Source of the DNA: Terriglobia bacterium
Lineage (GTDB): Bacteria > Acidobacteriota > Terriglobia > Bryobacterales > Bryobacteraceae
Assembly: GCA_020073445.1 (NCBI GenBank)
Contig: JAIQFE010000017.1
Location: 1-64,000, forward strand
DNA length: 64,000 nt
Direction: 5' to 3'
The position numbers were made by a program, and so were the translations under genes. The notes under the pieces are model-generated. The model was not told where the DNA came from. It made no database searches and worked only from the letters and a program-made list of their open reading frames with translations. This document shows positions 11,281 to 30,979 of the stretch, one piece after another. The number at the start of each line of letters is the position of its first letter. Position 1 is the stretch's first letter.

Positions 11281-11455
11281 GGCGCGTGCCTGTCCACTTT
11301 TCCGCCTGCTTGTCTAGGAGCCACCCCACGCGCCGGTTAGTGTCAAGTAAGTATCAAACGCCCGCAGTTTCGCGGGCGTTCTTGGCTTTTTGCAGGCTGG
11401 TAAGTTCTTTGGAATGTATGGAAGGTGTAGCGGGTTTCCTGCTTGACACGCAGGA
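11098..11455 (+). repeat. Direct repeat copy A (recombinase tail + hairpin + tRNA piece)
   Basis: Two blocks of this copy, 11098-11161 and 11364-11455, recur in the same order and orientation at 39468-39622. By eye the second block is about 85 percent identical, including TTCGCGGGCGTTCTTGGC, GTTCTTTGGAATG and CTTGACACGCAGGA. Copy B lacks the roughly 200 bases between the blocks, which places its breakpoint inside the hairpin. Confidence 0.75.
11357..11380 (+). terminator. Terminator-like hairpin
   Basis: A nine-base-pair stem (AACGCCCGC / GCGGGCGTT) with a six-base loop AGTTTC is followed by CTTGGCTTTTTG. It looks like a rho-independent terminator on the plus strand, although the T-run starts a few bases late. 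No intact plus-strand gene precedes it now; it may have ended a lost tRNA or element gene. Confidence 0.5.
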
Positions 11456-11487
11456 GGTCACAGATTCGAGTTCTGTCGAGCCCACCA
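11438..11487 (+). pseudogene. 3' half of tRNA-Val(GAC)
   Basis: The sequence folds as an anticodon arm (CCTGC, loop TTGACAC with anticodon GAC, GCAGG), a five-base variable loop, a perfect T-arm (ACAGA, loop TTCGAGT, TCTGT), the 3' acceptor strand CGAGCCC, discriminator A and an encoded CCA. The expected 5' acceptor GGGCTCG and a D-arm are missing: the bases upstream (GAATGTATGG...) do not pair. It is thus half a tRNA, as left at attachment sites by integrating elements, rather than a working gene. Confidence 0.75.
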
Positions 11488-11595
11488 CTTCCTTCACTAA
11501 CTACAGCCCCACTTGGCCAATGATAAGCGGGGAGGCAGTTTTTGGGAGTTCTATCTACTAACCTCGCAAAGAGGTCGGAGGATTCCGCGTCTTAT

Positions 11596-13647
11596 TTATT
11601 TTCTCTGCTGCGGCTGTGCGGAACGATGCTGTGCGCCTTCGAGGAACACGCGGCACAGAGTTGCGCCCAGCTCCGAGGGGCTGAGTTCGCCATTCCGCTT
11701 GAACCAGACTACTGTGCGATCCAGGAGCCCTTCCAGCATCATGCCGAGGTATTTCGGGGAGATGTCGTTCCGTATGGACCCGGCCCGTTGTCCGGCTTCG
11801 AGGACCGATCGTGCGCGCGTCTGGTACGCCTTTCGCATGCTCAAGATTTCCGCCAACCGTTCGGGAGAGAGGGCACGCGCCTCGGCCAGGGCCGTCGCAT
11901 GTTGAGTCTGGTCGCGGAGCAAGCTCACGACATGCGTCTGAATGCCAACCTGAAGTTGCGCGAGGGGATCGGAAATGCCCTCCGTCGCTTCGCTGACATC
12001 GTTGGCCAACTGTTCGGTGGATGATTTGCAGATCGCGTAGAGCAGATCCTCCTTGCCCTCTACGTGGTAGTACAACGTGGCTCTTTCCATTCCGAGCAGG
12101 GTGGCAAGGTCGCGGGTACTCGTCGATTCGTAGCCGTACTTGGAGAACAGTTCTGCGGCGCCGCGAATGAACTTCCCGAGCGTACCTCGATGCAACGCGC
12201 GCGATCGTTGCCGGCTGGTGGACACCGGAAGCGGCGGAAGGGAAGAGATTTCGCGCAGCTCGGGGCTGATGACACCCTCCCAAAAAATCCGGCTATAGAT
12301 GGAACTCAGATCTTTGCAGGAAAGCGGGCCCGAAGAGTGAAACCAGCGTGGCGTCCAGTTCAGGGTGTTCAAGAGAGCCAGGCGGATGTACTTCGAAGCG
12401 ATGTCCGTTCGCAGGATCCCTAATTTTTGTGCCGCATTCAGCTCCGAGTCGAGGAGGCGCGAGTATTCCTTGTATCTTTCCGAAATCTCCGCGAAGTGCA
12501 GGCGAGACAATGCCCGAAACTCGGTGACCACCGCCAGTGTCTGGCGGGGATTTCTCTCCATCACCTGAAGATGAGCGTCAATGAAAGCGCTAATCCGGCC
12601 CCTTGCGGTCTCCGCCTGGTTCAGGGTGGCGGGAAGGTCCGTCAGGAAACAATCCATGACCTGGCGGCAGATACGGTGAAGCAGCTCCTCCTTGTTGCTT
12701 ACGTGATGGTATAAAGAAGCCTGTTGAATATTCAGACGCGTGGCGAGTTCGCGAGTCGTAGCAGCGTAGAAACCCTTCTCGCAGAACAAATCCGCGGCTG
12801 CATCGAGGATGCGTGCCGACGTAGCGCCGGCGGCACTTTCCTCCTTCTTCGGAAGCCGGCTCGGCCTGCTCGCCGTGAGCTGGGCGGGCTTCTTGCTGAC
12901 CAGCTCTAACGCGATATTCCGGCCGCAATGGGGCTGGCCCTCTAACGCACTTTCGATTCCATGGATTGCCAGCCCTGCGTGTTGCCTCACCAGGGCTTCG
13001 GCCCGGGAGGCATCGCCAGACTGGATGGCGTTCAAGATCGCTTCGTGCTCTTCAAACGCACGCCGTGCACCGTCGCCTTCCACGGGAATCACAACGGCCG
13101 CTGGAGATGCGAACGCCGCCGATTGAAGACGCTGGATGCACCAGGACAGCATCGGGCTTCGCGCTGCGGCGACGAATGCGCTGTGGAACGCGGCATTCAA
13201 ATCACCGAAGCGGGACATCCCTTCCGGGGTTGGCGAGGTCGGCAGCGTGGACGCGCGGGAGGGGATCGCTTCCGCCAACTGAGCGTTTAGCTTGCGTGCC
13301 GGTTCAAGCTCCGAAGGATCCTGGATGCGCTTGGCTGCAAGACCGGCGGCCAGCGCTTCCAGAGCCGAACGCGCCAGAATGGCGTCCCGGATGTCCTCCA
13401 GCGTGAAGTGACGGGCCGCATATCCTCCGGAGGGCGCCGGTTCAAGCAGCCCTTCGGAAACAAGGTGGTCCAGAGCCGATCGCAGAACCGGCCTGGATAC
13501 CCCCAGGCGCCTGCTCAAATCGAATTCTTCAAGACGCTTCCGCGGTTCAAGTTGGCCTCTGAGGACCATCTCTCGCAACGCGAGGACGGTGCGCCCGCGC
13601 AATGTGGAAGCCCCGTTCAAGTCGTTCATCAGGCCGAAGGAGTCCAC
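11596..13647 (-). CDS. GntR(FCD)-TetR-TetR triple fusion transcription regulator
   Basis: One uninterrupted 683-residue frame encodes three regulators. Residues 17-80 are a GntR winged helix (EEFDLSRRLGVSRPVLRSAL). Residues 84-235 are a FadR-type FCD ligand domain with likely metal ligands D149, H155, H201 and H223. Residues 276-462 are a complete TetR unit with helix-turn-helix TTRELATRLNIQQASLYHHV. Residues 489-672 are a second TetR unit with TRDLATLLGMERATLYYHV. Linkers near 240-270 and 465-488 are rich in S, R, P and K. The GTG start at 13647 lies five bases after a TATGAT box, so the mRNA may be leaderless; ATG at 13629 is an alternative. The gene is divergent from the TonB receptor operon, its probable target. 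Three DNA-binding heads on one chain are highly unusual. Confidence 0.88.
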   Translation of the reverse strand: MDSFGLMNDLNGASTLRGRTVLALREMVLRGQLEPRKRLEEFDLSRRLGVSRPVLRSALDHLVSEGLLEPAPSGGYAARHFTLEDIRDAILARSALEALAAGLAAKRIQDPSELEPARKLNAQLAEAIPSRASTLPTSPTPEGMSRFGDLNAAFHSAFVAAARSPMLSWCIQRLQSAAFASPAAVVIPVEGDGARRAFEEHEAILNAIQSGDASRAEALVRQHAGLAIHGIESALEGQPHCGRNIALELVSKKPAQLTASRPSRLPKKEESAAGATSARILDAAADLFCEKGFYAATTRELATRLNIQQASLYHHVSNKEELLHRICRQVMDCFLTDLPATLNQAETARGRISAFIDAHLQVMERNPRQTLAVVTEFRALSRLHFAEISERYKEYSRLLDSELNAAQKLGILRTDIASKYIRLALLNTLNWTPRWFHSSGPLSCKDLSSIYSRIFWEGVISPELREISSLPPLPVSTSRQRSRALHRGTLGKFIRGAAELFSKYGYESTSTRDLATLLGMERATLYYHVEGKEDLLYAICKSSTEQLANDVSEATEGISDPLAQLQVGIQTHVVSLLRDQTQHATALAEARALSPERLAEILSMRKAYQTRARSVLEAGQRAGSIRNDISPKYLGMMLEGLLDRTVVWFKRNGELSPSELGATLCRVFLEGAQHRSAQPQQRK

Positions 13648-13709: not shown

Positions 13710-13723
13710 ACCAGTCGACAGGT
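13710..13723. promoter_or_regulatory. Candidate operator palindrome
   Basis: ACCaGTCGACaGGT is symmetric except at the two lower-case positions. It lies between the divergent regulator and TonB receptor genes, 63 bases from the regulator start. It may be a binding site for one head of the regulator; this rests on position and symmetry only. Confidence 0.35.
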
Positions 13724-13881
13724 TACACGGTAAAGTCCTGTCGGCCTCAAAGTCTAGTTTCGTTCCCTCTCGGGCTGTCGCCAGGTGGATATGACTGTGA
13801 TAATCCAAGGCATCCTGCAATCTACTGAAAATAATAACATCCGCCGATTTGTCGTTACCGGTCGTTCGGTGTATTTTAGGC

Positions 13882-13910
13882 TTGACACCGGCGGTTATCT
13901 GAAATAGAAT
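13882..13910 (+). promoter_or_regulatory. Sigma-70 promoter of the TonB receptor operon
   Basis: TTGACA at 13882-13887, a 17-base spacer and TAGAAT at 13905-13910 form a near-consensus promoter. Transcription should begin near 13917, giving a leader of about 70 bases with GGGGAGGGG before the ATG at 13989. Confidence 0.7.
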
Positions 13911-13988
13911 TCCTGGGGTTGCATGCAAGCGGCCGTCAGGCCGCCATGGGGTACGTCGGACGTAGATACAAAAGGGGAGGGGTGGAAG

Positions 13989-16900
13989 ATGCGTAGTCGA
14001 CTAATCTTGCTGTGTTTGCTAGCGTCGGCAGCCGTAGTTTTGGCTCAGTCCGACCGCGGAACGATTACTGGAACCGTAGCTGACCCGGCCGGCGCGGTAG
14101 TGGCCAGCGCACCTATTGAGGCCAAGAACACGGGAACGGGCGCGGTCTTCCAGGCCGCGAGTTCAGACACCGGGAACTTCACTCTGGCGCAATTGCCGGT
14201 CGGCACCTACGAAATATCCGTGGCGGTGGGCGGCTTCAAAAAGTACGTGCGGCAGAACATCATCGTGGGCGTGGCCCAGACCGTGCGTGTGGATATAGCC
14301 CTCGAAGTCGGTTCGGCGACGGAATCGGTAACGGTATCGGAGCAGTCGTCGCTGCTCAAAACCGAAAGTGGAGAAGTGAGCACTACCGTTGGGGCGCAGC
14401 GCATGATCGACTTAGGCGGGCTGGGTATCGGCGGTAGCAATTCAACCAGCCAGGGTCTTCGAACCTATCTATCGGAAATCCAGCTCGTGCCCGGCGCAGC
14501 GAATCCTGCCTCGGGATTCGTCCTGGGCGTTCGTGTGAACGGTGCGCCGAATGGGACCCAGCGCACGATTATCGACGGCGCGGATTCCACTAACCAGATC
14601 AACGCGGTGCAGGCCGGCACCGGCGCGAGCATGGACGCCATGCAGGAAACCGCGATCCAGACCAGCAACTACTCGGCGGAGTTCGGGCAGGTGGGCGGCG
14701 GCTTGTTCAACATCACCATGCGCTCGGGAACCAACCAATATCACGGTGCGGGCTACGACTACCTGGTGAACGAAGCCTTCAATGCATCGACGCCTTTTAC
14801 CAACGTGCTCCCGCGCACCCGGCGCAACGATTACGGCTTCAACTTCGGCGGCCCGGTGTGGATCCCCAAAATTTACAACGGCAAGGACAAGACCTTCTTC
14901 TACTACAATCGCGAGCAGTATCGCGAGTTTTACGTGGTAAACGACACCGCCATCACGGTTCCCACTGCAGCCTACCGCGCGGGCGATTTCTCGGGCGCGA
15001 TCACCGGCCGCAGTGCCGGAAACGATCCGCTGGGCAGAGCGATGCTGGAAGGCATGATCTTCGATCCCCAATCGCAGCGAGTCGTCAACGGGCAGCAGAT
15101 TCGCGACCAGTTCCCGGGCAATATCATTCTGCCAGCTCGGTTTGACAAGGTTTCGCAGGCCATCCAGGCGCTGATTCCAAGCCCGACCAATACCGCAGCG
15201 GCGCTGAACTATTTGCCGTCATTCCCGAACGATCGCATCACCACCAACGAGTCGGTGAAGCTGGATCACCAATTGACCCCCAAGATCAAGCTGTCGGGCA
15301 CGTGGCTGACGAACGCAACCTCGACGCAGTACTCACAGAGTCTGAACTCTTCCGAAGGATTCCCGGCTCTCATTACTCAGACGCGCGGATCGTTCAGCCG
15401 GTCCATGAACTGGCGCTTCAATTTAGATTACACACTGTCACCGGCAATGCTGTGGCACATCGGCATCGGATCGCTTCAGTATTTGCTCGATGATCACTCG
15501 CCCACCAACGATTTCAAGGACAGCTCGATCGGCCTGACGGGTGTCCCGAACCCCGGCGGGCGCTTCCCGGCCATCTCCGGATTGTGCGCTTCGGGCACGG
15601 CTCCGGCTTGCACGGGAACCGGCGGCAGCGCGAACGTCGGCGCGGGTGCTAACGTCGGCGCGGCGCAGTCCTTGACCAAGCAGTTCACTCCTACCTATAA
15701 CACCAACTTAACTTGGGTGAAGAGTAACCACACTTATAAGTTCGGCGCGGAGCTTCGCACCTTCGGTTATCCTTTCCATAATCTCACCGCCACTAACGGA
15801 AATTTCGTGTTCTCCACCAACCAGACCGCGCAGCCGTACGCGCAGTCATCCACAGTGAGCGGCGTGACGCTGGGCTACTCCTACGCGAGCTTCCTGCTGG
15901 GCCTGGTCAACAACGGCGTGGTGAATCCTCCGGCGGATCTGAAAACCGGGAAAAAATTCTGGGGGTTCTATGCGCAGGATACCTGGAAGCTCACCCGGAA
16001 GCTGACTCTCGACTACGGATTGCGGTATGACTATGACACCTATCCGCGCGAGCAGTACGGGCGCATGCCGACTGCATCCCTGAGCGTTCCGAATCCCACC
16101 GTCGGCGGACGCCCGGGCGGAATCATCTATGAGGCGACTTGCAACTGCAAGTTCGCTAAGAACTATCCGTTTGCGTTCGGCCCGCGCCTTGGCGTGGCTT
16201 ACCAGATAACGCCCAAAACCGTCCTCCGCGGCGGAATCGCGGTCGCCTACGACGGAACGGCCACGGGCAACACCGGCACCGGCAGCGCCGGCGCGAACAA
16301 TGCGTTCTCGGCTCCCGGATTCGGGGATGCGGCGATGAAGTTAGATACGGGTGTTCCTGCGGGCTATGTGTTGCCCTGGCCCAATTTCTCTGCCGGATCC
16401 TATCCCAATCCGAATTTCCCGGCGAACGTAAACGGCCCGGCGTCCATAGTGGATCAGAACGCGGGCCGTCCGGCGCGCCAGATCCAATGGAGCATCGGTC
16501 TGCAGCGTGAGGTTACGCGCAACACGGTGGTGGACGCATCCTATGTCGGGAATCGTGGCGCATGGTGGTTGAGCCCGAATCTCGACAACTACAACGCGCT
16601 CTCGACTAACACGCTCCAGGCTGCCGGCTTGGACATTAACAACGCCGCCGACCGTGCGATTCTTCGCGCGACGATCGGGTCGACGGCTGCGGGCCGGTTC
16701 CAAAACAAGCTGCCTTATGCCGGCTTCCCGACGAACTTCACCGTCGCTCAATCGCTGCGCCCCTTCCCGCAATTCACCAGCGGGTTGGCCCCTCTGTGGG
16801 CGCCGCAGGGCCGCACCTGGTACGATTCGCTCCAAGCCAAGGTTACGCAGCGCGTCTGGCACGGGTTGGAAGTGGCGTACGCGTTCACCTGGGCGAAGGA

Positions 16901-17606
16901 GATGCAACTGGGCACCGAGGGCGGCACGATCAACGACGTGTTCAACCGGTCGCAGAACAAGACGATCTCCGGTTTCTCCCGTCCGCTGGTGAGCGTGATT
17001 TCGATCAACTACCGGGTGCCCGCGCCGCAGGGTAATAAGATTGTCTCCCTGGCGGTTCGCGACTGGGCATTCGGAACCCTTCTGACATACGCCAGCGGAA
17101 CGCCGATTCTGGCGCCGACTTCCACCAACAACCTGACCAGCTTGCTGTTCCGCAGCACGTACTACAATCGCAATCCCGGCGTGCCCTTGTTCCTGAAGGA
17201 CCTGAACTGCCACTGCATCGATCCCACCAAGGATCTGGTCCTGAATCCCGCCGCCTGGAGCAATCCGACCGATGGACAGTGGGGCACGGCGAATGCCTAC
17301 TACAATGATTACCGATATCAGCGGCGGCCTTCGGAGTCGTTGAGCGTCGGCCGAGTATTCTCCTTCAAAGAACGGATGCGCTTCACGGTGCGGATGAACT
17401 TCACCAACGTTCTCAACCGCCTGGAAATGTCGAACCCGTCGGGTTCGCCGTCGACACCCACCACCACAGGAAATGTGACCGGCGTGCCTGCGTGCACCGG
17501 CGTGAACAAGTGCGCTACAGGCGGATTTGGCTTCATCAATTTCGCTAGCGGTGCCACTTTCATTCCGGCTCGCCAGGGTACCCTGGAGATGCGGCTTCAG
17601 TTCTAA
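13989..17606 (+). CDS. Oar-like TonB-dependent outer-membrane receptor
   Basis: This 1205-residue protein has a Sec signal (MRSRLILLCLLASAAVVLAQ), a CarboxypepD_reg beta-sandwich at about residues 24-108 (GTITGTVADPAGAVV ... GNFTLAQLPVGTYEISV), a plug domain and a large beta barrel. The plug has NGAPNGTQRTIIDGADSTNQ and TSNYSAEFGQVGGG; the barrel shows WGFYAQDTWK, LTLDYGLRYD and a C-terminal aromatic residue (LEMRLQF). Such receptors, greatly expanded in Acidobacteria, take up large substrates or act in adhesion at the outer membrane with TonB energy. The frame opens at 13923, but the ATG at 13989 begins the signal peptide and has a strong ribosome site. It is first in an operon that continues with a VOC protein 20 bases later. 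Confidence 0.92.
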   Translation: MRSRLILLCLLASAAVVLAQSDRGTITGTVADPAGAVVASAPIEAKNTGTGAVFQAASSDTGNFTLAQLPVGTYEISVAVGGFKKYVRQNIIVGVAQTVRVDIALEVGSATESVTVSEQSSLLKTESGEVSTTVGAQRMIDLGGLGIGGSNSTSQGLRTYLSEIQLVPGAANPASGFVLGVRVNGAPNGTQRTIIDGADSTNQINAVQAGTGASMDAMQETAIQTSNYSAEFGQVGGGLFNITMRSGTNQYHGAGYDYLVNEAFNASTPFTNVLPRTRRNDYGFNFGGPVWIPKIYNGKDKTFFYYNREQYREFYVVNDTAITVPTAAYRAGDFSGAITGRSAGNDPLGRAMLEGMIFDPQSQRVVNGQQIRDQFPGNIILPARFDKVSQAIQALIPSPTNTAAALNYLPSFPNDRITTNESVKLDHQLTPKIKLSGTWLTNATSTQYSQSLNSSEGFPALITQTRGSFSRSMNWRFNLDYTLSPAMLWHIGIGSLQYLLDDHSPTNDFKDSSIGLTGVPNPGGRFPAISGLCASGTAPACTGTGGSANVGAGANVGAAQSLTKQFTPTYNTNLTWVKSNHTYKFGAELRTFGYPFHNLTATNGNFVFSTNQTAQPYAQSSTVSGVTLGYSYASFLLGLVNNGVVNPPADLKTGKKFWGFYAQDTWKLTRKLTLDYGLRYDYDTYPREQYGRMPTASLSVPNPTVGGRPGGIIYEATCNCKFAKNYPFAFGPRLGVAYQITPKTVLRGGIAVAYDGTATGNTGTGSAGANNAFSAPGFGDAAMKLDTGVPAGYVLPWPNFSAGSYPNPNFPANVNGPASIVDQNAGRPARQIQWSIGLQREVTRNTVVDASYVGNRGAWWLSPNLDNYNALSTNTLQAAGLDINNAADRAILRATIGSTAAGRFQNKLPYAGFPTNFTVAQSLRPFPQFTSGLAPLWAPQGRTWYDSLQAKVTQRVWHGLEVAYAFTWAKEMQLGTEGGTINDVFNRSQNKTISGFSRPLVSVISINYRVPAPQGNKIVSLAVRDWAFGTLLTYASGTPILAPTSTNNLTSLLFRSTYYNRNPGVPLFLKDLNCHCIDPTKDLVLNPAAWSNPTDGQWGTANAYYNDYRYQRRPSESLSVGRVFSFKERMRFTVRMNFTNVLNRLEMSNPSGSPSTPTTTGNVTGVPACTGVNKCATGGFGFINFASGATFIPARQGTLEMRLQF

Positions 17607-17626: not shown

Positions 17627-18478
17627 GTGAACATTAGCGAGTACACCCGGCGCCGGACTCTTCAGCTTCTGGGCGCCGGGGCCGCCACCTGGATGGCGGC
17701 CGGGGTGGCAGACGCATCCGAACTGCCCATCAAGACCAGCGGTCTCGAACACATTGGCATGCAAGTGCCGGATCAGGAAGCGGCCGCGAAATTCTACGGA
17801 CGGATCTTCGATCCCCAGCTGTTCCAGGAGAAGGATCCCCCGCCGAGGTATTACGTTAAGATCGGCATCAACTATATAGCGTTCGGCGGGCTTCCTGCCA
17901 ATGCCAACCCTCCCGTAACCTCTGCCCGGATCGACCACTTTTGCGCTGTTGGCCTGGACTATAAAGGACAGGAGATGAGGAAGAGCCTGGATGAAGCCGG
18001 CGTTCCCATGACAGGCCAGGGCGCCTTGGGGATGGCGGCGGATCCGGACGGCCTGCGGCTTCAGTTTCTGGGCGCGCCGGCCGGATTGGCGCGGACCATC
18101 ATCCCGTCTTCCCGAATCTCGCAGGACGAACCTGCCGTGCAGGCCATCGGATTCGATCACATTATGCTTGCCGTGACCGATCTCGAAAAGTCCGCGGTGC
18201 ACTACCGGAAGATTTTCGGCATGGAGGTTTCGCGGACCAAGAAGCCCGACAGGATCTGGTTCGGCGTTGCGAAGACCCGCCTGGGTCTGGAGACGGTCGC
18301 GCCCGGGAAGTCGCCCAGCATCGAACATATTGGGATCAAGGTTGCGGGTTTCGATAAGGGTGCTATTACCGAAAAGCTAAAGAAACTCGGCGTGGAGATC
18401 GCGCCTTCGAACGATGAGGGCGGGCTGCGATTCAAGGATCTGAACGGGCTGTTGATGGAGCTGAAACCGGGAGTTTGA
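17627..18478 (+). CDS. Exported VOC (glyoxalase/dioxygenase fold) protein
   Basis: The GTG-started 283-residue protein has a twin-arginine-like signal (YTRRRTLQLLGAGAATWMA). Two VOC modules follow: residues about 38-152 (GLEHIGMQVPDQEAAAKFYGRIF) and about 165-283 (AIGFDHIMLAVTDLEKSAVHYRKIF). Each begins with an IxHI/M strand whose histidine is the usual metal ligand of this fold. The family includes glyoxalases, extradiol dioxygenases and binding proteins; the reaction here is not predictable. The gene lies between the TonB receptor and the ankyrin gene in one operon. Confidence 0.87.
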   Translation: MNISEYTRRRTLQLLGAGAATWMAAGVADASELPIKTSGLEHIGMQVPDQEAAAKFYGRIFDPQLFQEKDPPPRYYVKIGINYIAFGGLPANANPPVTSARIDHFCAVGLDYKGQEMRKSLDEAGVPMTGQGALGMAADPDGLRLQFLGAPAGLARTIIPSSRISQDEPAVQAIGFDHIMLAVTDLEKSAVHYRKIFGMEVSRTKKPDRIWFGVAKTRLGLETVAPGKSPSIEHIGIKVAGFDKGAITEKLKKLGVEIAPSNDEGGLRFKDLNGLLMELKPGV

Positions 18479-18479: not shown

Positions 18480-19988
18480 ATGCGATTTACGTGCGCCGCG
18501 CTGGGGCTGGTCGTATTGCCGGCCGCGGGTTTCGGAGCGGATACGCGCATTGCGGAAGCCGCGATGCACCAGGACAACTCCGCGGTGCGAGCCCTGATCC
18601 AGCAAAAAGCGGATGTAAACGCTACGCTGCCGGACGGCGCGACGGCTCTCCATTGGGCCGCGAACGAGGACGATCTCGACACGGTTAGCCTGCTGATCCA
18701 GGCGGGCGCGAACGTGAAGGCCAAGGATCGCTACGGCTTCACCCCCTTGTACTTCGCGTCGACAAACGGCAGTGCAGCGGTGATCCGCAAGCTGCTCGAC
18801 GCCGGGGCCGATCCCAACGCCGCCGATTCGAGCGGGGAAACGGCACTCATGACCGCGACGCGCAGCGGCAATGTCGACGCTGTCAAAATTCTTCTTCAGC
18901 ACGGAGCGGATGTAAAAACGAAGGATGCTGTAACGCAGCAGACGCCGCTAATGTGGGCGGTGCGATCGAATTTTCCCGCAGCCGTTGACCTCTATCTCGA
19001 ATATGGAGCCGAGATCAATGCGCGCACGCGCACCGGCAAGACGCCCGCGGCGCGACCCCCTGGGGCGGGTGGTGGATCGCACGGCGCGGGAATCGTTCGC
19101 AGCGGCTGGCCGGAACAGGGTTTTCAGGGCGAGACTCCGGGCGGCATGACGCCGCTGCTCTACGCGGCTCGCGACGGCAGGGTCGACATCGCGCGGATCC
19201 TTATCGCGGCCAAAGCGGACGTGCAACAGGCGGACGTAAACGGCATCACTCCGCTACTGATGGCGATCACCAACAATCATCTGGATACGGCGAAGTTCCT
19301 GTTGGAGAAGGGCGCTGCCGTAAACGCGGCCGACTGGTGGGGCCGTGCACCTCTGTACGCCACGGTAGAAATTCGCAATCGTGATTATGGCCGGAACAAT
19401 GAGCACGAGATCGACCGGCCGGCTGCGCTCGAAGTGATCAGAATGCTGCTCGATCGCGGCGCGAATGTGAATGCCCGAACCAAGGAAGTCCCGCCGACCC
19501 GCCGGTTCGTGACTCCATTAGGCGATTTATCCTGGGTCGATTTCACCGGCCAGACTCCGTTCCTAAGGGCGGCGCTCGCCGGTGATATTACGGTGATGCG
19601 ACTCCTGCTCGAAAAGGGCGCCGATCCGAATATCGCTACCTTCGCGGGCACCACGGCCCTGATGGCGGCCTCTGGAGTGAACTGGATGACGGGGCAGACC
19701 TACACCGAATCCAAAGAAGCTCTGATGGAGGCGGTTCAGTTGTGCCTCGATAAGGGCGGAGACGTGAACGCGAAGAACTCGATGGGAGTGACGGCAGTCA
19801 TCGGCGCTGCGAATCGGGGATCGGATGACATCCTGGAGTTCCTGGTGAAGAAAGGTGCCCGGTTGGACATTAAAGACAAGGAAGGCCGCACGCCGCTGGT
19901 GTGGGCCGAAGGCGTTTTTCTCGCCACCAACGCTCCGGAAGCCAAGCCTTCGACGATGGCTCTGATCAAAAGGTTGATGGCGCAATGA
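18480..19988 (+). CDS. Secreted ankyrin-repeat protein
   Basis: A Sec signal (MRFTCAALGLVVLPAAGFG) precedes around ten ankyrin repeats spread over residues 25-500, for example DGATALHWAANEDDLDTVSLL, GFTPLYFASTNGSAAVIRKL and GETALMTATRSGNVDAVKIL. A glycine/proline-rich insert (near residues 188-200) splits the array. Ankyrin stacks bind proteins; location in the periplasm beside a cytochrome suggests a scaffold. GGGAG lies six bases before the ATG. The stop overlaps the next start as ATGA (19985-19988), so it is coupled to the cytochrome gene. Confidence 0.9.
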   Translation: MRFTCAALGLVVLPAAGFGADTRIAEAAMHQDNSAVRALIQQKADVNATLPDGATALHWAANEDDLDTVSLLIQAGANVKAKDRYGFTPLYFASTNGSAAVIRKLLDAGADPNAADSSGETALMTATRSGNVDAVKILLQHGADVKTKDAVTQQTPLMWAVRSNFPAAVDLYLEYGAEINARTRTGKTPAARPPGAGGGSHGAGIVRSGWPEQGFQGETPGGMTPLLYAARDGRVDIARILIAAKADVQQADVNGITPLLMAITNNHLDTAKFLLEKGAAVNAADWWGRAPLYATVEIRNRDYGRNNEHEIDRPAALEVIRMLLDRGANVNARTKEVPPTRRFVTPLGDLSWVDFTGQTPFLRAALAGDITVMRLLLEKGADPNIATFAGTTALMAASGVNWMTGQTYTESKEALMEAVQLCLDKGGDVNAKNSMGVTAVIGAANRGSDDILEFLVKKGARLDIKDKEGRTPLVWAEGVFLATNAPEAKPSTMALIKRLMAQ

Positions 19989-22264
19989 GCGGACTGAAAC
20001 GGGCGGCCGCGGCCGTTGGAGTGCTGCTGATCGCCCTGGTCATTCGCCCAGAGAATGCCCGCCCTCAGAATCCATCTCCTGACCAGGCGCTGCTAAATCA
20101 GTACTGCATCGGCTGCCATAACGAGAAAACCAAGACCGCGGGCCTGATGCTTGACAAGCTGGATCTGTCGCATCCCGGGCAGGATCCGGAAACCTGGGAA
20201 AAAGTCGTGCGCAAAGTGCGGGCGGGCATGATGCCGCCGTCGGGCATGCCTCGCCCGGCGCGTGCGGTGCTCGACTCGTGGGCTACTAACCTCGAAGCCG
20301 GTTTGGATCGCGCGGCCACAGCCAAGCCCAATCCCGGCAGCACGGGACTTCATCGGCTGAATCGCACCGAATACACCAACGCCATCCGCGACCTTCTGGC
20401 CATTGACGTGGATGGCGCGACGGTTCTTCCCGCGGACGATTCGAGCGAAGGGTTCGACAATATCGCCGACGCACTAGCGGTTTCGCCCGCGTTGATCGAG
20501 CGCTACGTCGGCGCGGCCGGGAAGATCAGCCGTCTGGCGGTGGGGAACATGTTGATCACGCCGTCGACGATCACTTATCGCGCGCCGGGGGATCTCTCGC
20601 AAACGGAACACGTCGACGGGTTGCCGCTCGGTACGCGCGGCGGCATGCTGGTCCGGCATACGTTTCCCCTGGATGCCGAGTACTCGTTTAAGGTTCGTGC
20701 CCGATCGGCGGGAATCGGCGTAGGCGGCGCCGGGGCTCCGGGCGAGGAATTGGAACTGGTTTTGAACGGCGAGCGCCTCAAATTGGCGGCCGGGGGCTCT
20801 ATCGACGTGAAGGTTGCCGTAAAGGCGGGGCCGCAGGACATTGGTGCGGCTTACGTGCGGAAGGCTCCTCCAGGCGCGGACGATATCTGGCAGGTATTCG
20901 CCGGAAACTCGAGCGTGAGCAGCATCGCGATTACCGGGCCGCTCAATCCGACTGGTCCTGGAGACACACCCAGCCGCCGGAAGATTTTCGTGTGCCACCC
21001 GGCGTCCGAAGCGGAGGAAGCCGCGTGCGCGAAGACGATTCTGTCCACGCTCGCACTGCGCGCGTATCGCCGGCCGCCCTCTGGCGCCGATCTCGATACG
21101 CTTCTCAGCTTCTACCAGACGGGGCGCAAGAACGGCAGTTTCGATCTGGGTATCGAGCAGGGACTGGCGCGCGTACTTGTCGATCCGCGTTTCGTGTTCC
21201 GCTTCGAACAGGAACCGGCCGGTGTAGCCGCGGGCGCTAGTTATCGCGTGAGCGATGTGGAACTGGCTTCGCGCTTGTCGTTTTTCCTCTGGAGCAGTAT
21301 CCCGGACGCGGAACTTCTGGACCTGGCGGTTCAGGGCAAACTGCACGATCCTGCCGTGCTCGAAAAACAGACGCTGCGCATGCTGAAGGATCCGCGTTCG
21401 GAAACGCTGGCGACCAATTTCGGCGGGCAGTGGCTGTATCTGCGGGAATTGAAGAACGCCCGTCCCGAGGCGCGCGGCTTCAACGATAACCTTCGCCAGG
21501 CGTTTCGCCGCGAGACCGAATTGCTTTTCCAAAGCGTCGTGGACGAGGATCGCAATGTGGTCGATCTGCTCAACGCGGATTACACGTTCGTCAATGAGGC
21601 GCTGGCTCGCCACTACGGGATCCCGGGTGTCAAAGGGAGCCGGTTCAAGCGGGTCACGATCCAGGATGAAAACCGCCGCGGTCTGCTGGGCCAGTCGAGT
21701 TTCCTGCTGGTGACTTCGGTCGCCAACCGGACTTCGCCCGTATCGCGCGGCAAATGGGTGCTCGAAAACCTTCTGGGGACTCCCGCGCCTCTGCCTCCGC
21801 CTAACGTTCCGCCGCTCCCGGAGAGCGAAGGCGCACAGCAGCCCGCTTCGATCCGGCAGAAAATGGAGCAGCACCGGCAAAATCCCGTGTGCGCCGCCTG
21901 CCATAAGATCATGGATCCGATCGGGTTTTCGCTGGAGAATTTTGACTTGATCGGAAAGTACCGGACTACCGATGGCGGCACCCGCATCGACGCGTCTGGC
22001 CAACTGGTCGACGGCACCAAGCTGGACGGCCCGGCGAGCTTGCGGCAGGCTCTGTTGAGCCGTTCCGACGTGTTCGTTCGGACCATGACCGAAAAGCTGT
22101 TGACGTACGGAACCGGCAGGGCCCTGAAATATTACGACATGCCGGTGGTGCGTTCGATCACGCGCGACGCGGCCAAGAACGACAACCGTTTTTCATCACT
22201 GATTCTGGGCATCGTCAAGAGCGATCCGTTTCAGATGCGAGTAAAAGCAGGAGGCAACCAATGA
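19985..22264 (+). CDS. DUF1587/DUF1592/DUF1588/DUF1585 c-type cytochrome
   Basis: This 759-residue exported protein has a signal peptide and a heme-binding motif C41-I-G-C-H45 followed by MMPP, the planctomycete-type cytochrome c start. Then come DUF1587 (GLHRLNRTEYTNAIRDLLAI), a DUF1595/1592 core (YRVSDVELASRLSFFLWSSIP), DUF1588 (RRGLLGQSSFLLVTS), a proline run PLPPPNVPPLP, and DUF1585 with a second heme-like motif CAACH before KIMDPIGFSLENFD. These proteins occur in Planctomycetes and Acidobacteria with a DUF1552 partner, as here. A role in periplasmic oxidation of sugars or polymers is suspected but unproven. The earlier open frame from 19901 is inside the ankyrin gene and was not used. 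Confidence 0.92.
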   Translation: MSGLKRAAAAVGVLLIALVIRPENARPQNPSPDQALLNQYCIGCHNEKTKTAGLMLDKLDLSHPGQDPETWEKVVRKVRAGMMPPSGMPRPARAVLDSWATNLEAGLDRAATAKPNPGSTGLHRLNRTEYTNAIRDLLAIDVDGATVLPADDSSEGFDNIADALAVSPALIERYVGAAGKISRLAVGNMLITPSTITYRAPGDLSQTEHVDGLPLGTRGGMLVRHTFPLDAEYSFKVRARSAGIGVGGAGAPGEELELVLNGERLKLAAGGSIDVKVAVKAGPQDIGAAYVRKAPPGADDIWQVFAGNSSVSSIAITGPLNPTGPGDTPSRRKIFVCHPASEAEEAACAKTILSTLALRAYRRPPSGADLDTLLSFYQTGRKNGSFDLGIEQGLARVLVDPRFVFRFEQEPAGVAAGASYRVSDVELASRLSFFLWSSIPDAELLDLAVQGKLHDPAVLEKQTLRMLKDPRSETLATNFGGQWLYLRELKNARPEARGFNDNLRQAFRRETELLFQSVVDEDRNVVDLLNADYTFVNEALARHYGIPGVKGSRFKRVTIQDENRRGLLGQSSFLLVTSVANRTSPVSRGKWVLENLLGTPAPLPPPNVPPLPESEGAQQPASIRQKMEQHRQNPVCAACHKIMDPIGFSLENFDLIGKYRTTDGGTRIDASGQLVDGTKLDGPASLRQALLSRSDVFVRTMTEKLLTYGTGRALKYYDMPVVRSITRDAAKNDNRFSSLILGIVKSDPFQMRVKAGGNQ

Positions 22265-23586
22265 GTTTCATCACCAGAAAACATCTTTCGCGCCGGACTC
22301 TGCTGCGCGGCGTGGGAGTTTCGCTCGGGCTGCCGCTGCTCGATTCCATGGTGCCGGCACAAACGCCGCTGTCCAAGACCGCGGCGACGTCGAAAAGCCG
22401 ACTGAGCTGCATCTACGTGCCCCACGGCGCGACCATGGACAAGTGGACTCCGGCCGCTGACGGCAAGGGCTTTGAGTTCACCGAGATCCTCAGCCCGCTG
22501 GAGAAATTCCGCGACCGCGTTTCGATTGTGTCGAACCTTGCGCACCCAGCGGCGGGCGGTGTGGGGTCCGATGCCGGCGCCGACCACGCGCGATCGGCCG
22601 CCGTGTTTCTCAGCGGCGTGCACCCCGAGCAGGGCTCGATTCACGTGGGCACCACGATCGATCAGATCGCGGCGCAGCGTATCGGACAGGATACCCCACT
22701 GCCCTCAATCGAGCTTTCGATTGAAGAGGTCGCTCTGAGCTGCGGCTCGGGTTACGCGTGCGCCTACTCGAATACGATTTCCTGGAAGACGCCGACCACG
22801 CCGCTGCCGATGGAAAACAATCCACAGGTGGTGTTCGAAAAACTGTTCGGCGACGGGAGCAACAACGCCGACCGGCTGGCTCGCAAGCAGCAGAGCCGCA
22901 GCCTTCTCGATTCGGTGATGGATCAGGTGGCGTCGCTGCAGCGGGAGCTTCCCGCGTCCGACCGCACCAGACTGGGCGAATATCTGGATGACGTCCGCGA
23001 GATCGAACGCCGCATCCAGAAAGCCGAAAATCAGATCCCGGCGGATCTGAAACTGCCCGAAGCGCCGGTGGGCGTGCCGGAATCCTTCGACGAGCATTTC
23101 AAGATCATGTACGACCTGCAGGTGCTGGCATTCCGCGCCGAGATCACTCGAGTCGCCACGCTGATGTACGCGCGCGATACCAGTGGCGCGGTCTATCCGC
23201 AGAGCGGCATTCGCGACGGGTTCCACGTGGCTTCGCACCATTCGAACAATCGCGCGAATATGGACAAGTTCGCGCTGATCAATAAGTATCACGTGGAGAT
23301 GCTCGCGTACTTCCTGGACAAGCTGAAGTCGACGCCCGATGGCGACGGAAACCTGCTGGATCACTCCATGGTTCTTTACGGCAGCAGCATGAGCAACGGA
23401 AACCAGCACGATCATGATCCGCTGCCCGTCGTGCTCGCTGGTGGAGCCTCCGGACAACTGAACGGCGGCCGTCACATGACTTATGCTCCGCATACGCCGA
23501 TGTCGAACCTGCTGCTGTCGATGCTCGACAAGCTGGGGATTCAGGCGGATAAGCACGGCGATAGCACCGGGAAGCTCGAGATTTAA
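22261..23586 (+). CDS. DUF1552 protein, cytochrome partner
   Basis: The 441-residue protein has a twin-arginine signal (KHLSRRTLLRGVGVSLGLPL) and the DUF1552 core: RLSCIYVPHGATMDKWTP, EKFRDRVSIVSNLAHP, ARSAAVFLSGVHP, and late HSMVLYGSSMSNGNQHDHDPLPVVLAGG. The fold resembles alkaline-phosphatase/sulfatase-type proteins (DUF1501 relatives), and the export route suggests a folded, possibly metal-loaded protein. It overlaps the cytochrome gene by ATGA (22261-22264), so the two products are probably made in equal amounts and act together in the periplasm. Confidence 0.92.
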   Translation: MSFITRKHLSRRTLLRGVGVSLGLPLLDSMVPAQTPLSKTAATSKSRLSCIYVPHGATMDKWTPAADGKGFEFTEILSPLEKFRDRVSIVSNLAHPAAGGVGSDAGADHARSAAVFLSGVHPEQGSIHVGTTIDQIAAQRIGQDTPLPSIELSIEEVALSCGSGYACAYSNTISWKTPTTPLPMENNPQVVFEKLFGDGSNNADRLARKQQSRSLLDSVMDQVASLQRELPASDRTRLGEYLDDVREIERRIQKAENQIPADLKLPEAPVGVPESFDEHFKIMYDLQVLAFRAEITRVATLMYARDTSGAVYPQSGIRDGFHVASHHSNNRANMDKFALINKYHVEMLAYFLDKLKSTPDGDGNLLDHSMVLYGSSMSNGNQHDHDPLPVVLAGGASGQLNGGRHMTYAPHTPMSNLLLSMLDKLGIQADKHGDSTGKLEI

Positions 23587-23609: not shown

Positions 23610-24476
23610 ATGAAAATAAAATTACTGCTTTCCACCCTTGCTCTTGCCGCCGTCGCTATGGCGCAGCCGAAGCTCCAATTGAAGGTGCATCACGGCGCCG
23701 GCCAGAACGGTTACGACGTGAACTCCACGATGATCTCCGGCGAAAAGGACATGCTGGTGATCGATCCCCAGTTCAGTCTGAGTGAAGCCCATCGCCTGGC
23801 CGCGGAGATTCTGGAGTCCAAGAAGAATCTGGCGATCATTTACGTCACCCACCCGCATCCCGACCATTTGTTTGGCCTCGCGGTGCTGCATCAGGCGTTT
23901 CCGTCTGCCCGGATTGTCGCGCTGCCGGCCACGGTCAACGCCGCCAAGACGGGTTGGCCCGCCCGGCAGAAGTTCTGGTTTCCCACCTACGGCAACAACA
24001 TCCCAGGGCCCGAACCCGTCTTGCCGGAGGAACTGACTACTCCCGTACTCACCCTTGAGGGGGAAAACTTCCCCATTACGGGTGGAGTGCAAGGGGCAGA
24101 CGGTCCAGGGAACAGCTTCGTCTATATTCCGTCCCTCAAAGCGGTGGTGACGGGAGATATCATGTTCGACCACGTCTACTTTGGTGTTCCCCGGGACAAG
24201 GCTCGCGAAGATTGGTTGAAGACCACCGAGCAGATCGTCGCGCTGAATCCGGCCATCATTGTCCCCGGTCATGAGGGTCCTGGCGCGACACGCGACCTGG
24301 CGACACTCGCGTTCATGAAGAAGTACATCGCGGATTGGGACGCGAACGTCGCTGCTTCGCATGACGCCGCGGAAATGCGGGCCAAAGTTCTAAAACAGTA
24401 TCCCGGCCTGGGGATGGAATTCACCCTCAACGATCGGGTCGCGACCTACTTCCCGGCGGCTACCAAAGGAAAGTAG
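23610..24476 (+). CDS. Secreted MBL-fold hydrolase
   Basis: A Sec signal (MKIKLLLSTLALAAVAMAQ) is followed by a 270-residue metallo-beta-lactamase fold. The metal motif is THPHPDHLFGL, VVTGDIMFDHVYF gives the bridging aspartate, and IIVPGHEGPG the last histidine. The full set of ligands suggests an active periplasmic hydrolase; relatives act in quinoprotein-linked oxidation or as lactonases. It lies 23 bases after the DUF1552 gene and closes the operon; the convergent arabinofuranosidase gene ends 21 bases away. Confidence 0.88.
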   Translation: MKIKLLLSTLALAAVAMAQPKLQLKVHHGAGQNGYDVNSTMISGEKDMLVIDPQFSLSEAHRLAAEILESKKNLAIIYVTHPHPDHLFGLAVLHQAFPSARIVALPATVNAAKTGWPARQKFWFPTYGNNIPGPEPVLPEELTTPVLTLEGENFPITGGVQGADGPGNSFVYIPSLKAVVTGDIMFDHVYFGVPRDKAREDWLKTTEQIVALNPAIIVPGHEGPGATRDLATLAFMKKYIADWDANVAASHDAAEMRAKVLKQYPGLGMEFTLNDRVATYFPAATKGK

Positions 24477-24497: not shown

Positions 24498-26057
24498 CTA
24501 TGCCGGAGCAGCCTGCAGCAGTAGCCGCGAATACGAACGTGCTGGCAGTTGAAGCACCATACGCCCGCTCGGGCGCGGCGACTCGAGCGAGGCGGGCTTC
24601 ACTTTGTCGGGCTCGGCAAACGTGTTGACGGCTTTCAGATCCGTGCCCGTCAGGGTATCGAATCGCAAGCTGCGGGTAGGTGCGTTGTCGCGGAACACTA
24701 GGGTGGCTTCGCGCGGCTGCATCAGGTCGCGATTGAGCAGCAACACACAATACTGGCCCGTAGCCGGGTCAAAGGTGACCGCGCTGTCGATGGCCGGAAT
24801 GCCTTCGATCGCGGCGGATTCCACCAAGGCGTCCAGTGCCTGCCCGCGCGCGCTTTCGAGCGCCCACGAGTAGGGATAGTAGATGCTCTGGCGCAACAGG
24901 CCATTTGCATTGGTCACAATCGGTGCGATTACGTTCACCAATTGGGCAAGGCAGGCGACGCGGACTTTGTCCGAGCGCCGCAGGAGCGCATTCACCAACC
25001 CTCCCACCAGCAACGCGTCTTCCAGGTTGTACTCTTCCTCCAGCAGATGCGGGGCCTGTTGACGCTGGCCGTTGCCGCCCCGGCGGCGGTACCAGACGTT
25101 CCATTCGTCGAAGGAGAGCCACAGGCGCTTGTTGGAGCCGGTGCGCTTGCGAACATACTCGCAAACGGCCGCGACCTGATCGATCTGCTCTTCCATCGCC
25201 AGGTTCAACGCCAGATATTTCAGGGAATCGCCCCGAGTTTCACCGGTCGCGTCGTTCCCGTAATAGCGGTGCAGGCTGATGCCGTCCACTTGCGAATAGC
25301 ACTCTTCCAGAACTTCACGATCCCATTCCAGAAATGTCGATTGCCCCGGGCCAGACGAGCCGCAGGCGATCAGTTGCACGTTGGGGTCGGCCGCTCGCAT
25401 TTGCCGCGCGGCGTCGACCGCTTTGCGGCCATATTCTCGGGCCGGCATGTGGCCAATCTGCCAGGTACCATCCATCTCGTTGCCCAGGCACCAGGTGCGA
25501 ATGGCATGGGGCTGCGCGTAGCCATGTTCGCGTCGCAGATTGCTCCACTTAGTGCCGCCAGGAACGTTGCAATATTCCACCAGTGCGGCCGACATCTCGG
25601 GTGCCGCCGTGCCGAAATTAGTCCCGATCAGCGGCTCGGCGCCAACACTCCTGGCCCAGGTTACGAATTCATTGGTGCCGAACTGGTTCGTCTCGATGGA
25701 GTTCCAGGCCCGGTCGAGCACAGTGGGCCGTTTGTCGCGCGGGCCCACGCCATCCAGCCAGTTGTAGCCGGAAACGAAGTTGCCGCCCGGATAGCGAATG
25801 ATCGGCACGCCCATGCTGCGCACCTCCGCGGCAACGTCTTTGCGGAAGCCGGCCGGATCCGCCAGAGCCGACCCGGGATCATAGATGCCGCCGTAAATAG
25901 CGCGACCCAGGTGTTCCAAAAAGCTGCCCCAAATGCGCCGGTCAATGGTGGCCCGCACGCGAAGCGGATCGATCACAACACGGTTGGCCGCGGCCTGCGC
26001 CCGCAGCAGGGTGGGCGCGGCAAACATCAGCGGGACAAAGTTCCGTCGAGTCAGCAT
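24498..26057 (-). CDS. GH51 alpha-L-arabinofuranosidase, exported
   Basis: The 519-residue protein matches glycoside hydrolase family 51. Markers are GSFLEHLGRAIYGGIYDP, IIRYPGGNFVSGYNW, WCLGNEMDGTWQ with the acid/base glutamate, and LWLSFDEWNVWY with the nucleophile glutamate, followed by the C-terminal beta-sandwich. It releases terminal arabinofuranose from arabinan, arabinoxylan or oligosaccharides. The start MLTRRNFVPLMFAAPTLLRAQA looks like a twin-arginine signal, whereas many GH51 enzymes are cytoplasmic, so it probably acts in the periplasm. It is last in the operon headed by an AraR-type regulator, 14 bases after the permease. Confidence 0.92.
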   Translation of the reverse strand: MLTRRNFVPLMFAAPTLLRAQAAANRVVIDPLRVRATIDRRIWGSFLEHLGRAIYGGIYDPGSALADPAGFRKDVAAEVRSMGVPIIRYPGGNFVSGYNWLDGVGPRDKRPTVLDRAWNSIETNQFGTNEFVTWARSVGAEPLIGTNFGTAAPEMSAALVEYCNVPGGTKWSNLRREHGYAQPHAIRTWCLGNEMDGTWQIGHMPAREYGRKAVDAARQMRAADPNVQLIACGSSGPGQSTFLEWDREVLEECYSQVDGISLHRYYGNDATGETRGDSLKYLALNLAMEEQIDQVAAVCEYVRKRTGSNKRLWLSFDEWNVWYRRRGGNGQRQQAPHLLEEEYNLEDALLVGGLVNALLRRSDKVRVACLAQLVNVIAPIVTNANGLLRQSIYYPYSWALESARGQALDALVESAAIEGIPAIDSAVTFDPATGQYCVLLLNRDLMQPREATLVFRDNAPTRSLRFDTLTGTDLKAVNTFAEPDKVKPASLESPRPSGRMVLQLPARSYSRLLLQAAPA

Positions 26058-26071
26058 GATAAATCCTCTCT

Positions 26072-27328
26072 TTACGTGGAAGAGATATTGGAAGCGAGTT
26101 GTTGGTATTCGGTTTCATCCGCGCGTCCCAGGATCGTGCTGGTGGGGTCGAGAAACTGGTTCAGCAGTGTTCCCACAAACAGCAACGCGGCAAACCCGGT
26201 GGCGAGCATGAAGCCGTAAATCGGTCCGCCCATGGCGTCGCTGATCGCGCCGATCGCCAGCGGAGCCAACACGGCGGAGAGGCAAGTGTAGAAGAGGATG
26301 ACACCCGCAGCCGCGCCGTGCGCGGATTTGGGAACGCAGCTGATCCCCTTGGAGTTGACGGTCGGGTAGATGACGGACATGAACAATCCCGACAAAGGCA
26401 GAGCGTAGATGGCCCAGTGCACGCCACCGGCGATGCTCGCGGCGAAACACGCCACGATAGCGCCGCTGCAGATGGTCAAAGCTGAACTCCAGGCGAGCTT
26501 GTTCAGCATCCACGCGCCCAGAAACCGGCCTCCCGCGCGTAACAGGAAGAAAATCGAGATGCTGTAGACGGCGATCCATTCGCCCGATCCGTGGTAGCCG
26601 TCGAACAGCGTCGGCATCCACACGTAGATCGCCGATTCGACGGCGACATAGAGAAATGCCCCGAGCGAGAACAGGAGAACGAAGGGGTTCTTCGAGACGG
26701 CCAGGACGGCCTGCGGATTCGCGTCTTCGACCGCCGCGGCCCGCGTCGGGTATTGCACACGGAGCGCGGTCAGAATCAGCAGGACGCACATACTGCCCGC
26801 GATCACGTACAGCCATTGCCATGGGACGCTCCGTTTCAGTAGTTGCGCCAAAAGAGCCGGGCCGATAATCGAGCCGATCCCGAAGAAGCCCTCGACGAAG
26901 TTCATGATGGACGTATGTTCGGCCGTCGAGTGGGAGATGTCGCCGATCAGCGCGAGTGCTCCGGTCTTGAAGATCCCAATGGCGGCGCCGGACAGTGCCA
27001 TCAGCACGCAGAAGAATGGGAAGGAGCTCCCGGCGATGAAGAGGTAGGAAGAGGCCGCGAAAAGAGTCAGGCCGGCGACGATCGTCGTTTTCCGTCCGTA
27101 GCGGTCCGCCAGATGCCCGAGCAGGAAGCCTGCCAGAGCGATGCCGGCCATCGTAGCGTATTGAAACGTTCCGGCGGCGGTCAGGCTCAGTTTGAATGTC
27201 TTGATGATCTGGGGAATAATGATGCCGACCGAGTCGGTAGTCATCGCGAACATCGCGAACATGACATAGGTCAAGCCCTTGATCAGGGTCATGTTCATGA
27301 GGTTGCGCGGCTTGGCGGGCGCACTCAT
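26072..27328 (-). CDS. MFS sugar permease
   Basis: This 418-residue membrane protein has twelve predicted helices in two halves. The MFS signature between helices 2 and 3 is GHLADRYGRKTT. The second half has LFMSVIYPTVNSKGISCVP and GVILFYTCLSAVLAPLAIGAISD, which resembles FucP-like sugar porters. Substrate is probably sucrose or arabinose because it sits between a sucrose phosphorylase and an arabinofuranosidase. The start at 27328 has AGGAG eight bases upstream and overlaps the phosphorylase stop by ATGA; the longer frame to 27442 was rejected. Confidence 0.88.
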   Translation of the reverse strand: MSAPAKPRNLMNMTLIKGLTYVMFAMFAMTTDSVGIIIPQIIKTFKLSLTAAGTFQYATMAGIALAGFLLGHLADRYGRKTTIVAGLTLFAASSYLFIAGSSFPFFCVLMALSGAAIGIFKTGALALIGDISHSTAEHTSIMNFVEGFFGIGSIIGPALLAQLLKRSVPWQWLYVIAGSMCVLLILTALRVQYPTRAAAVEDANPQAVLAVSKNPFVLLFSLGAFLYVAVESAIYVWMPTLFDGYHGSGEWIAVYSISIFFLLRAGGRFLGAWMLNKLAWSSALTICSGAIVACFAASIAGGVHWAIYALPLSGLFMSVIYPTVNSKGISCVPKSAHGAAAGVILFYTCLSAVLAPLAIGAISDAMGGPIYGFMLATGFAALLFVGTLLNQFLDPTSTILGRADETEYQQLASNISST

Positions 27329-29750: not shown

Positions 29751-29784
29751 GCAACCGCCAGTATCGGGGTTCGGAGTACGGCTG

Positions 29785-30909: not shown

Positions 30910-30916
30910 AAATCTG

Positions 30917-30945
30917 ATAATACAGGTTGACCGTTTCCCCGGCAA
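30917..30945 (-). promoter_or_regulatory. Promoter of the regulator/sucrose operon
   Basis: On the reverse strand TTGCCG (30945-30940), a 17-base spacer and TATTAT (30922-30917) form a good sigma-70 promoter. The predicted transcript starts next to the GTG at 30909, so no ribosome site is expected. Confidence 0.6.
30919..30929 (+). promoter_or_regulatory. Candidate operator copy 1 (AATACAGGTTG)
   Basis: The 11-base word recurs exactly at 31025-31035. This copy overlaps the -10 element of the reverse promoter and lies just upstream of the -35 of the forward promoter, so a protein bound here could act on both. Confidence 0.5.
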
Positions 30946-30950
30946 CCGGC

Positions 30951-30979
30951 TTGACTTGTCGTTGAGGCCGGTTTATATT
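30951..30979 (+). promoter_or_regulatory. Promoter of the esterase operon
   Basis: TTGACT at 30951-30956, a 17-base spacer and TATATT at 30974-30979 make a strong sigma-70 promoter. Transcription should start near 30986, 70 bases before the SGNH start. Confidence 0.65.

Follow-up and report, generated by a model that had tools for sequence, protein, structure and literature searches.

The window analyzed here, i.e., the whole stretch of 64,000 nucleotides under study, contains one open reading frame that joins a GntR-type regulator to two TetR-type regulators, which raises the question of whether such a polypeptide is a real regulator and what it would do at the promoter of the divergent receptor operon. 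A sequence-only reading had described the frame as uninterrupted, 683 residues long and composed of a GntR winged helix, an FCD domain and two complete TetR units. This description proved correct: the gene (11596..13647, minus strand) runs from a GTG start at 13647 to 11596 with no internal stop and encodes 683 aa (an ATG at residue 7, position 13629, is an alternative start), and its domains scored above the curated Pfam cut-offs. The GntR winged-helix head (PF00392) occupies residues 20-75 (13423..13590; 40.7 bits versus a cut-off of 27, E = 1.8e-10) and the FCD ligand/dimer domain (PF07729) residues 91-223 (12979..13377; 69.6 bits versus 24.3, E = 4.3e-19), which places the N-terminal part in the FCD subfamily of the GntR superfamily. 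A first linker of about 40 residues (residues 237-276, 12820..12939) leads to TetR unit 1 (residues 277-465, 12253..12819), delimited by Pfam (TetR_N at 280-326), tree and structural model, and a second linker (residues 466-490, 12178..12252) leads to TetR unit 2 (residues 491-672, 11632..12177), delimited by Pfam (TetR_C_24 at 560-671) and tree; all of these features lie on the minus strand. The second junction had earlier been put at 12350, which falls inside TetR unit 1. TetR_N (1.7e-27) and TetR_C_24 (1.4e-42) each matched two stretches of the chain above the curated cut-offs, and each C-terminal unit consists of a TetR_N helix-turn-helix followed by an all-helical ligand domain, as is characteristic of the TetR family. 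With two units per chain, the protein is not a conventional single-unit TetR regulator of the PaaR or KstR2 type; with two non-identical TetR units in one chain, it has the layout of the Mce3R-like double TetR proteins.

Among proteins of solved structure, the one closest in sequence to the GntR part is Atu1419 of Agrobacterium fabrum (PDB 6z74, 1.6e-24), which regulates hydroxycinnamate genes, binds ATGTATACAT with a contact by Arg45, holds Zn by Asn137, His141, His192 and His214, and as a tetramer loops DNA via two palindromes (PMC7797058). Arg52 of the fusion aligns to Arg45, and the four Zn ligands align to N151, H155, H201 and H223. This predicted site of one Asp/Asn and three His is found in all four fusion proteins described below. 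Three of the metal ligands proposed previously (H155, H201 and H223) are therefore retained, while the fourth is N151 rather than D149; residue 149 is E in the relative with 53% identity, unlike the four metal-ligand positions.

The whole fusion layout was found in at least four of the 237 genomes of the family, i.e., those of the window, G014, G020 and G218, when the best candidates of each genome were scored. Identity to the window's fusion was 92% for G014, 91% for G020 and, over residues 15-675, 53% for G218, and G218 belongs to another genus than the window's genome. Two of the other fusion genomes correspond to the public records JAIQFI010000067.1 and JAICXC010000090.1, whose titles point to different projects. 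No further fusion appeared among the best few candidates scored per genome (mostly four, and two in the class sample) in the order (257 genomes), in 399 genomes sampled from the class or in 396 sampled from the phylum, the last of which were searched with the tandem part. Viral contigs yielded no relatives, and phage and plasmid records gave partial matches only, none of which covered more than 80% of the query. Twelve matches with long open frames were fetched as possible further fusions. Eleven of them proved to be genes for one GntR or one TetR regulator, and in several the open frame was merely lengthened by chance. The twelfth is a 1059-residue frame (L157, G254:C508) that combines a TetR regulator with a part named by eye as a FadB-like 3-hydroxyacyl-CoA dehydrogenase/enoyl-CoA hydratase. 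In addition, a Rhodococcus plasmid encodes a 440-residue TetR regulator (L155, 3172-4494), whose match spans both TetR units in two pieces and which adjoins acyl-CoA dehydrogenase and CoA-transferase genes. Among the window, G014 and G020, dN/dS was 0 to 0.23 in every domain, indicating purifying selection, and reached 0.97 and 2.25 in the linkers, where there were few changes to count. Given that the layout is kept in three other genomes, it reflects more than chance, and the possibility that relatives always carry three separate genes is excluded. Thus, the fusion is a real, conserved and rare regulator made of known domains.

The fusion gene is divergent from an Oar-like TonB-dependent receptor gene in all four loci, with ankyrin and DUF1592 genes further on. 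In the window, Pfam identified the receptor gene (13989..17606), followed by genes for a VOC/glyoxalase-fold protein (17627..18478), an ankyrin-repeat protein (18480..19988), a DUF1587/1592/1588/1585 planctomycete-type cytochrome protein (19901..22264) and a DUF1552 protein (22261..23586), all on the plus strand. The receptor frame opens at 13923, and ATG 13989, which follows GGGGAGGGG, was judged by eye to be the likelier start. The DUF1552 gene was seen in three fusion loci, the G218 stretch ending before that point; the VOC gene was not found in the G218 locus, where a metallo-beta-lactamase-fold gene lies on the other strand between the receptor and ankyrin genes. The DNA common to the window, G014 and G020 extends from about 11564-11615 to 23588 at 87% identity, and the window gene at 23610-24476 occurs further on in both G014 and G020.

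Downstream (24498-39407), the window contains genes for an arabinofuranosidase C-terminal domain, an MFS transporter, a PfkB kinase, two GDSL esterases, two tannases/feruloyl esterases, a carboxylesterase and a ceramidase-like protein. Some of these recur at the G218 fusion locus, namely tannases (72% and 43%), the transporter and a portion of the ceramidase-like protein. These neighbors make plant phenolic esters a plausible signal for the regulator, although by inference only. A direct repeat of about 93 bp (81/93 identical; 11363-11455 and 39532-39623) brackets the 28 kb that hold the regulator, its operon and the esterase genes, and its left copy extends into a 3' fragment of tRNA-Val (11438-11488), whose 51 bases exactly match the intact tRNA-Val(GAC) of contig C59; ARAGORN found no tRNA in the window. 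The repeats and the tRNA-Val piece look like the edge of an old integrative island.

Inspection of the gap between the two divergent genes revealed one operator-like site of each kind, which goes beyond what the sequence-only reading had seen and supports its suggestion that the protein integrates signals or bridges sites for the TonB/cytochrome genes. The receptor gene is preceded by the promoter TTGACA-17-TAGAAT (13882..13910, plus strand; 11/12, with 0.4 expected in shuffles of the region). A candidate TetR-type operator, ACCGGTCGTTCGGT (13857..13870), lies 11 bp upstream of the -35 box; it is the only exact ACCGNNCGNNCGGT in the 64 kb (0.175 expected in simulations) and is symmetric at 5 of 7 base pairs, as counted by hand. 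A candidate FCD-GntR-type palindrome, TTGCATGCAA (13919..13928), lies 8 bp after the -10 box, and 0.1 occurrences of its pattern TTG[CT]AT[GA]CAA were expected in simulations; these simulations preserve only first-order base statistics. A possible second, weaker TetR site, ACCAGTCGACAGGT (13710..13723), lies close to where the regulator gene starts and is the only other ACC...CG...GGT in the 64 kb. The two main sites and the weaker site are the most conserved part of the gap among the window, G014 and G020: the invariant bases number 14/14 in the TetR site, 9/10 in the palindrome, 12/14 in the second TetR-like site and 24/29 in the promoter, versus 121/274 in the rest of the gap.

The arrangement of the sites is conserved as well. 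Their centers are 60 bp apart in the window, G020 and G019 and 61 bp in G014, and in each of the four, 8 bp separate the -10 box from the palindrome downstream of it. The TetR-type site ends 11-12 bp before the -35 box; in G218, it has one mismatch and abuts the -35 box, ending 1 bp before it. The palindrome is present in three of the four fusion promoters and was not found in that of G218. When the 237 genomes were searched for the exact gapped pair, only four matches were obtained, i.e., the three close fusion promoters and G019, while the reversed-pattern control gave none; the TetR pattern was chosen after the sites had been seen, and this count has its own control. G019 contains no fusion; its standalone tandem TetR gene is tail to tail with a receptor gene that is divergent from ankyrin, DUF1592 and DUF1552 genes. 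Because G019 keeps both sites without a fusion, a separate GntR can serve the palindrome.

Further analyses of 30 receptor promoters (one per genome, best match) related each site to the type of regulator gene nearby. The TetR site with at most one mismatch was found in 5/5 receptor promoters with a tandem or fusion neighbor and in 2/25 others (two of these with less than 400 bases upstream). The GntR palindrome was found in 10/30 receptor promoters: in all but one (that of G218) of the seven that have a GntR-FCD gene within 1.5 kb upstream, and in 4/23 without such a gene. Standalone FCD-GntR genes with 38-42% identity to the fusion adjoin related receptor genes in G008, G015, G004 and G217; ankyrin and DUF1592 genes are near in G008 and G015, and only the receptor was seen in G004 and in G217, where the contig ends. 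The receptor promoters next to these standalone genes contain TGTATACA-like palindromes, and exact TetR sites are absent from them; a single 1-mismatch TetR site was found in G008, in or at the GntR gene. Just upstream of standalone tandem-TetR genes, a 1-mismatch TetR site was found for 2 of 10 (that of G014 and one of two in G222). Elsewhere in G222, two Oar-like genes (L077, 3380 and 6982) are each preceded by the same 35 bases, which hold the exact TetR-type site ACCGGTCGATCGGT, and a standalone tandem TetR is in the neighborhood.

Pairs of a palindrome and a TetR site with at most one mismatch, no more than 100 bp apart, occurred five times in 571,849 bases from 29 sources and never in 12 simulations, which likewise preserve only first-order base statistics. 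The fifth pair is in the window's own genome (L083, 5376-5423), in the divergent gap of another ankyrin/DUF1592 locus close to a tandem TetR, and consists of a 1-mismatch TetR site and the palindrome TTGCATGCAA at a spacing of 36. Across the window's genome, 17 TetR sites with at most one mismatch were found versus 16 in the control, i.e., no excess. Since 1-mismatch sites are no commoner than in the control, only the exact, conserved site is informative. A longer TetR pattern with up to three mismatches gave 50 versus 36 matches in the same genome, and the window site was the only exact one. The one other exact TetR site in this genome follows a NusA-like frame (named by eye) and looks like chance.

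How the two TetR units might grip such a site is suggested by modeling. For residues 262-683, the best of five models (five rows) had a mean pLDDT of 62 and a pTM of 0.55, and the other models had 39-41; the full-length AlphaFold model (three rows, pLDDT 40) was not used. The first Foldseek match to the tandem model was Mce3R (PDB 9b7y; E = 3.2e-8, TM 0.55-0.59, rmsd 10.0), and VIA-align superimposed this moderate-confidence model on Mce3R over both units (Z = 19.6, 354 residues, rmsd 6.1). The next matches included CoA-thioester-binding TetR proteins, i.e., KstR2 and, by title, FadR and AibR. Mce3R of M. tuberculosis is a single-chain TetR pseudo-dimer that dimerizes further (PMC11667970). 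Its type of double TetR is characterized by a single-chain omega fold that includes an internal four-helix bundle. The predicted match supports, without proving, that each chain of the fusion makes one TetR-type clamp, perhaps with one shared TetR cavity, and that the two units are probably not parts of two separate TetR dimers. Of the earlier proposal of one chain with three DNA-binding heads and three ligand pockets, the single polypeptide stands, while its two TetR heads would probably make up one Mce3R-like pseudo-dimer. The standalone tandem TetRs and the Mce3R-like predicted fold lead us to expect that a homodimer has a single GntR dimer and a pair of single-chain TetR clamps.

Based on these observations, we propose that the fusion is a two-input repressor of the divergent TonB-receptor operon, a reading to which we assign a probability of about 0.6. 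We infer its DNA binding, repression, dimer architecture and ligands. The protein would be a natural fusion of an FCD-type GntR repressor and an Mce3R-like tandem-TetR repressor, acting on the divergent operon and probably also on its own gene. The GntR-FCD part would dimerize and block RNA polymerase by occupying the palindrome immediately downstream of the -10 box. The two TetR units of each chain would form a single-chain pseudo-dimer that binds the ACCGNNCGNNCGGT site on the upstream side of the -35 box. A single homodimer could thereby clasp the core promoter from both sides, with its GntR-FCD dimer on the palindrome and one TetR clamp at the ACCGNNCGNNCGGT site, which would leave the other TetR clamp available to the weaker site (13710-13723) close to the fusion gene itself. 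Release of each arm would depend on a separate metabolite, i.e., a carboxylate-like ligand with metal assistance for the FCD domain and an acyl- or aryl-CoA for the TetR part. More tentatively, and at slightly less than even odds in our estimate, the fusion may represent a new regulator class in which a GntR-FCD dimer carries two single-chain TetR pseudo-dimers, occupies both promoter sides by two different operators at the fixed 60-bp spacing, gives an AND-type response to two metabolites and is able to loop to the third site at its own gene.

The alternative that survives best, which we consider unlikely yet worth serious attention, is that only the tandem-TetR part binds DNA, that the GntR-FCD part serves as a ligand sensor and dimerization module, and that the palindrome is read by a standalone GntR paralogue. 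Such paralogues are present in all four fusion genomes, and G019 has the palindrome without a fusion. Moreover, the palindrome is absent from the G218 fusion promoter, which means that the GntR head may not bind DNA everywhere, and the head is the domain of G218 that is least like the window's (44% versus 49-63% for the others). Taken together, the drift in G218, the pair of sites in G019 and the GntR paralogues suggest that the head may be a sensor, not a DNA grip, in some or all fusions. However, the head has a dN/dS of 0.10-0.23 among close orthologues, R52 and R56 are kept in all four fusions, and the three close fusion promoters all have the palindrome at the same distance of 8 bp downstream of the -10 box, which argue for a head that binds DNA.

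A considerably less likely alternative is that the protein is an activator, with the TetR part recruiting RNA polymerase from upstream of the -35 box and the GntR part shutting the promoter off. The distance of 11-12 bp between TetR site and -35 box, which in G218 is shorter by about one helical turn, would suit such a role. Against it, Mce3R represses, PaaR represses through a site of the same framework, and a 1-mismatch site seems, as read by eye, to lie between the promoter hexamers at the G000:C20 locus.

It is very improbable that distinct GntR and TetR proteins arise from the frame during translation or by processing. An in-frame GTG475 (ATG in G014 and G020) and a TTG485 in linker 2 do precede TetR unit 2, but no Shine-Dalgarno sequence was seen before either codon, no ATG, GTG or TTG codon occurs between residues 230 and 286 and hence none in linker 1, and the linkers remain in frame in all four fusion genomes; separate proteins made from internal starts were rejected after this inspection of start codons and Shine-Dalgarno sequences. 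An assembly or sequencing artefact, for which the draft state of the genome (102 contigs) might speak, has a negligible likelihood and was rejected because the layout recurs in three further genomes, in one of them at only 53% identity.

The proposed two-input repressor appears to have been assembled from parts that also exist on their own. The searches yielded at least 10 standalone tandem-TetR proteins, whose open frames span 430-519 aa. Eight of them come from the family, while G508, of another family of the class, and G274, from elsewhere in the phylum, contribute one each. Trees were built from 28 GntR-FCD and 46 TetR rows, kept from 61 named loci after two GntR and three TetR candidates had been dropped for matches that were too short or absent. 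The fusion parts each formed one clade (GntR 96/90, TetR1 100/99, TetR2 100/100). In the 46-unit TetR tree, the TetR1 units of the fusions and the standalone tandems also formed one clade (96/98), and the second TetR units of tandems and fusions stood apart without resolving as one clade. This pattern suggests that GntR was added to an existing tandem TetR; the tandem TetR would be the older part, and the GntR-FCD part was apparently joined later and once.

Each part of the fusion also has characterized counterparts. Like Mce3R, it has two TetR units in one chain, with a predicted fold that aligns over both (PDB 9b7y; PMC11667970). Mce3R differs in having no GntR-FCD part, in its weak sequence similarity to the fusion (1.2e-9, one unit) and in its operator, which is described as non-palindromic (PMC11667970), whereas the candidate site of the fusion is nearly palindromic. 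Like Atu1419, the fusion is an FCD-GntR protein with predicted Asn-His-His-His ligands, the aligned contact Arg and a TGTATACA-type palindrome near a -10 box, and its palindrome TTGCATGCAA resembles the Atu1419 site ATGTATACAT (PMC7797058); unlike the fusion, Atu1419 is a GntR-FCD protein alone. The ACCGNNCGNNCGGT framework of the window site is shared by the operator ACCGACCGGTCGGT of PaaR of Burkholderia cenocepacia, which mutation showed to be needed for repression (PMC2770484), and by several genomic sites of TTHB023 of Thermus thermophilus, such as CCTACCGACCGGTCGG (PMC7022988). For TTHB023, the earlier predicted consensus was TACCGACCGNTNGGTN, and its own selected consensus is a differently centered palindrome (PMC7022988). 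PaaR and TTHB023 are single-unit TetR proteins, unlike the fusion (PMC2770484, PMC7022988). The standalone tandem-TetR and FCD-GntR proteins of the same family are relatives of its parts that occur beside related receptor genes as separate proteins.

The sequence-only reading knew of no described regulator of this layout, and searches of an open-licence library showed no natural one. Engineered GntR-TetR fusions that combine two inputs on one chain in human cells have been reported (PMC10450161); they differ from the fusion in being synthetic and in having a gluconate GntR and one TetR unit (PMC10450161). The protein consists of known domains in an arrangement for which these searches showed no natural precedent, and the promoter evidence suggests its use.

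Fused regulators are easily overlooked as oddities of annotation; in this case, the promoter hints at the purpose of the fusion. Promoters of related receptor genes neighbor a GntR alone, a tandem TetR alone (still with both sites) or a chain that unites the two, so that the step from two co-acting regulators to one molecule becomes directly testable. With two candidate sites 60 letters apart, one molecule of a soil bacterium may read two chemical signals at one promoter, which would make it a natural design for a two-input, single-protein promoter switch.
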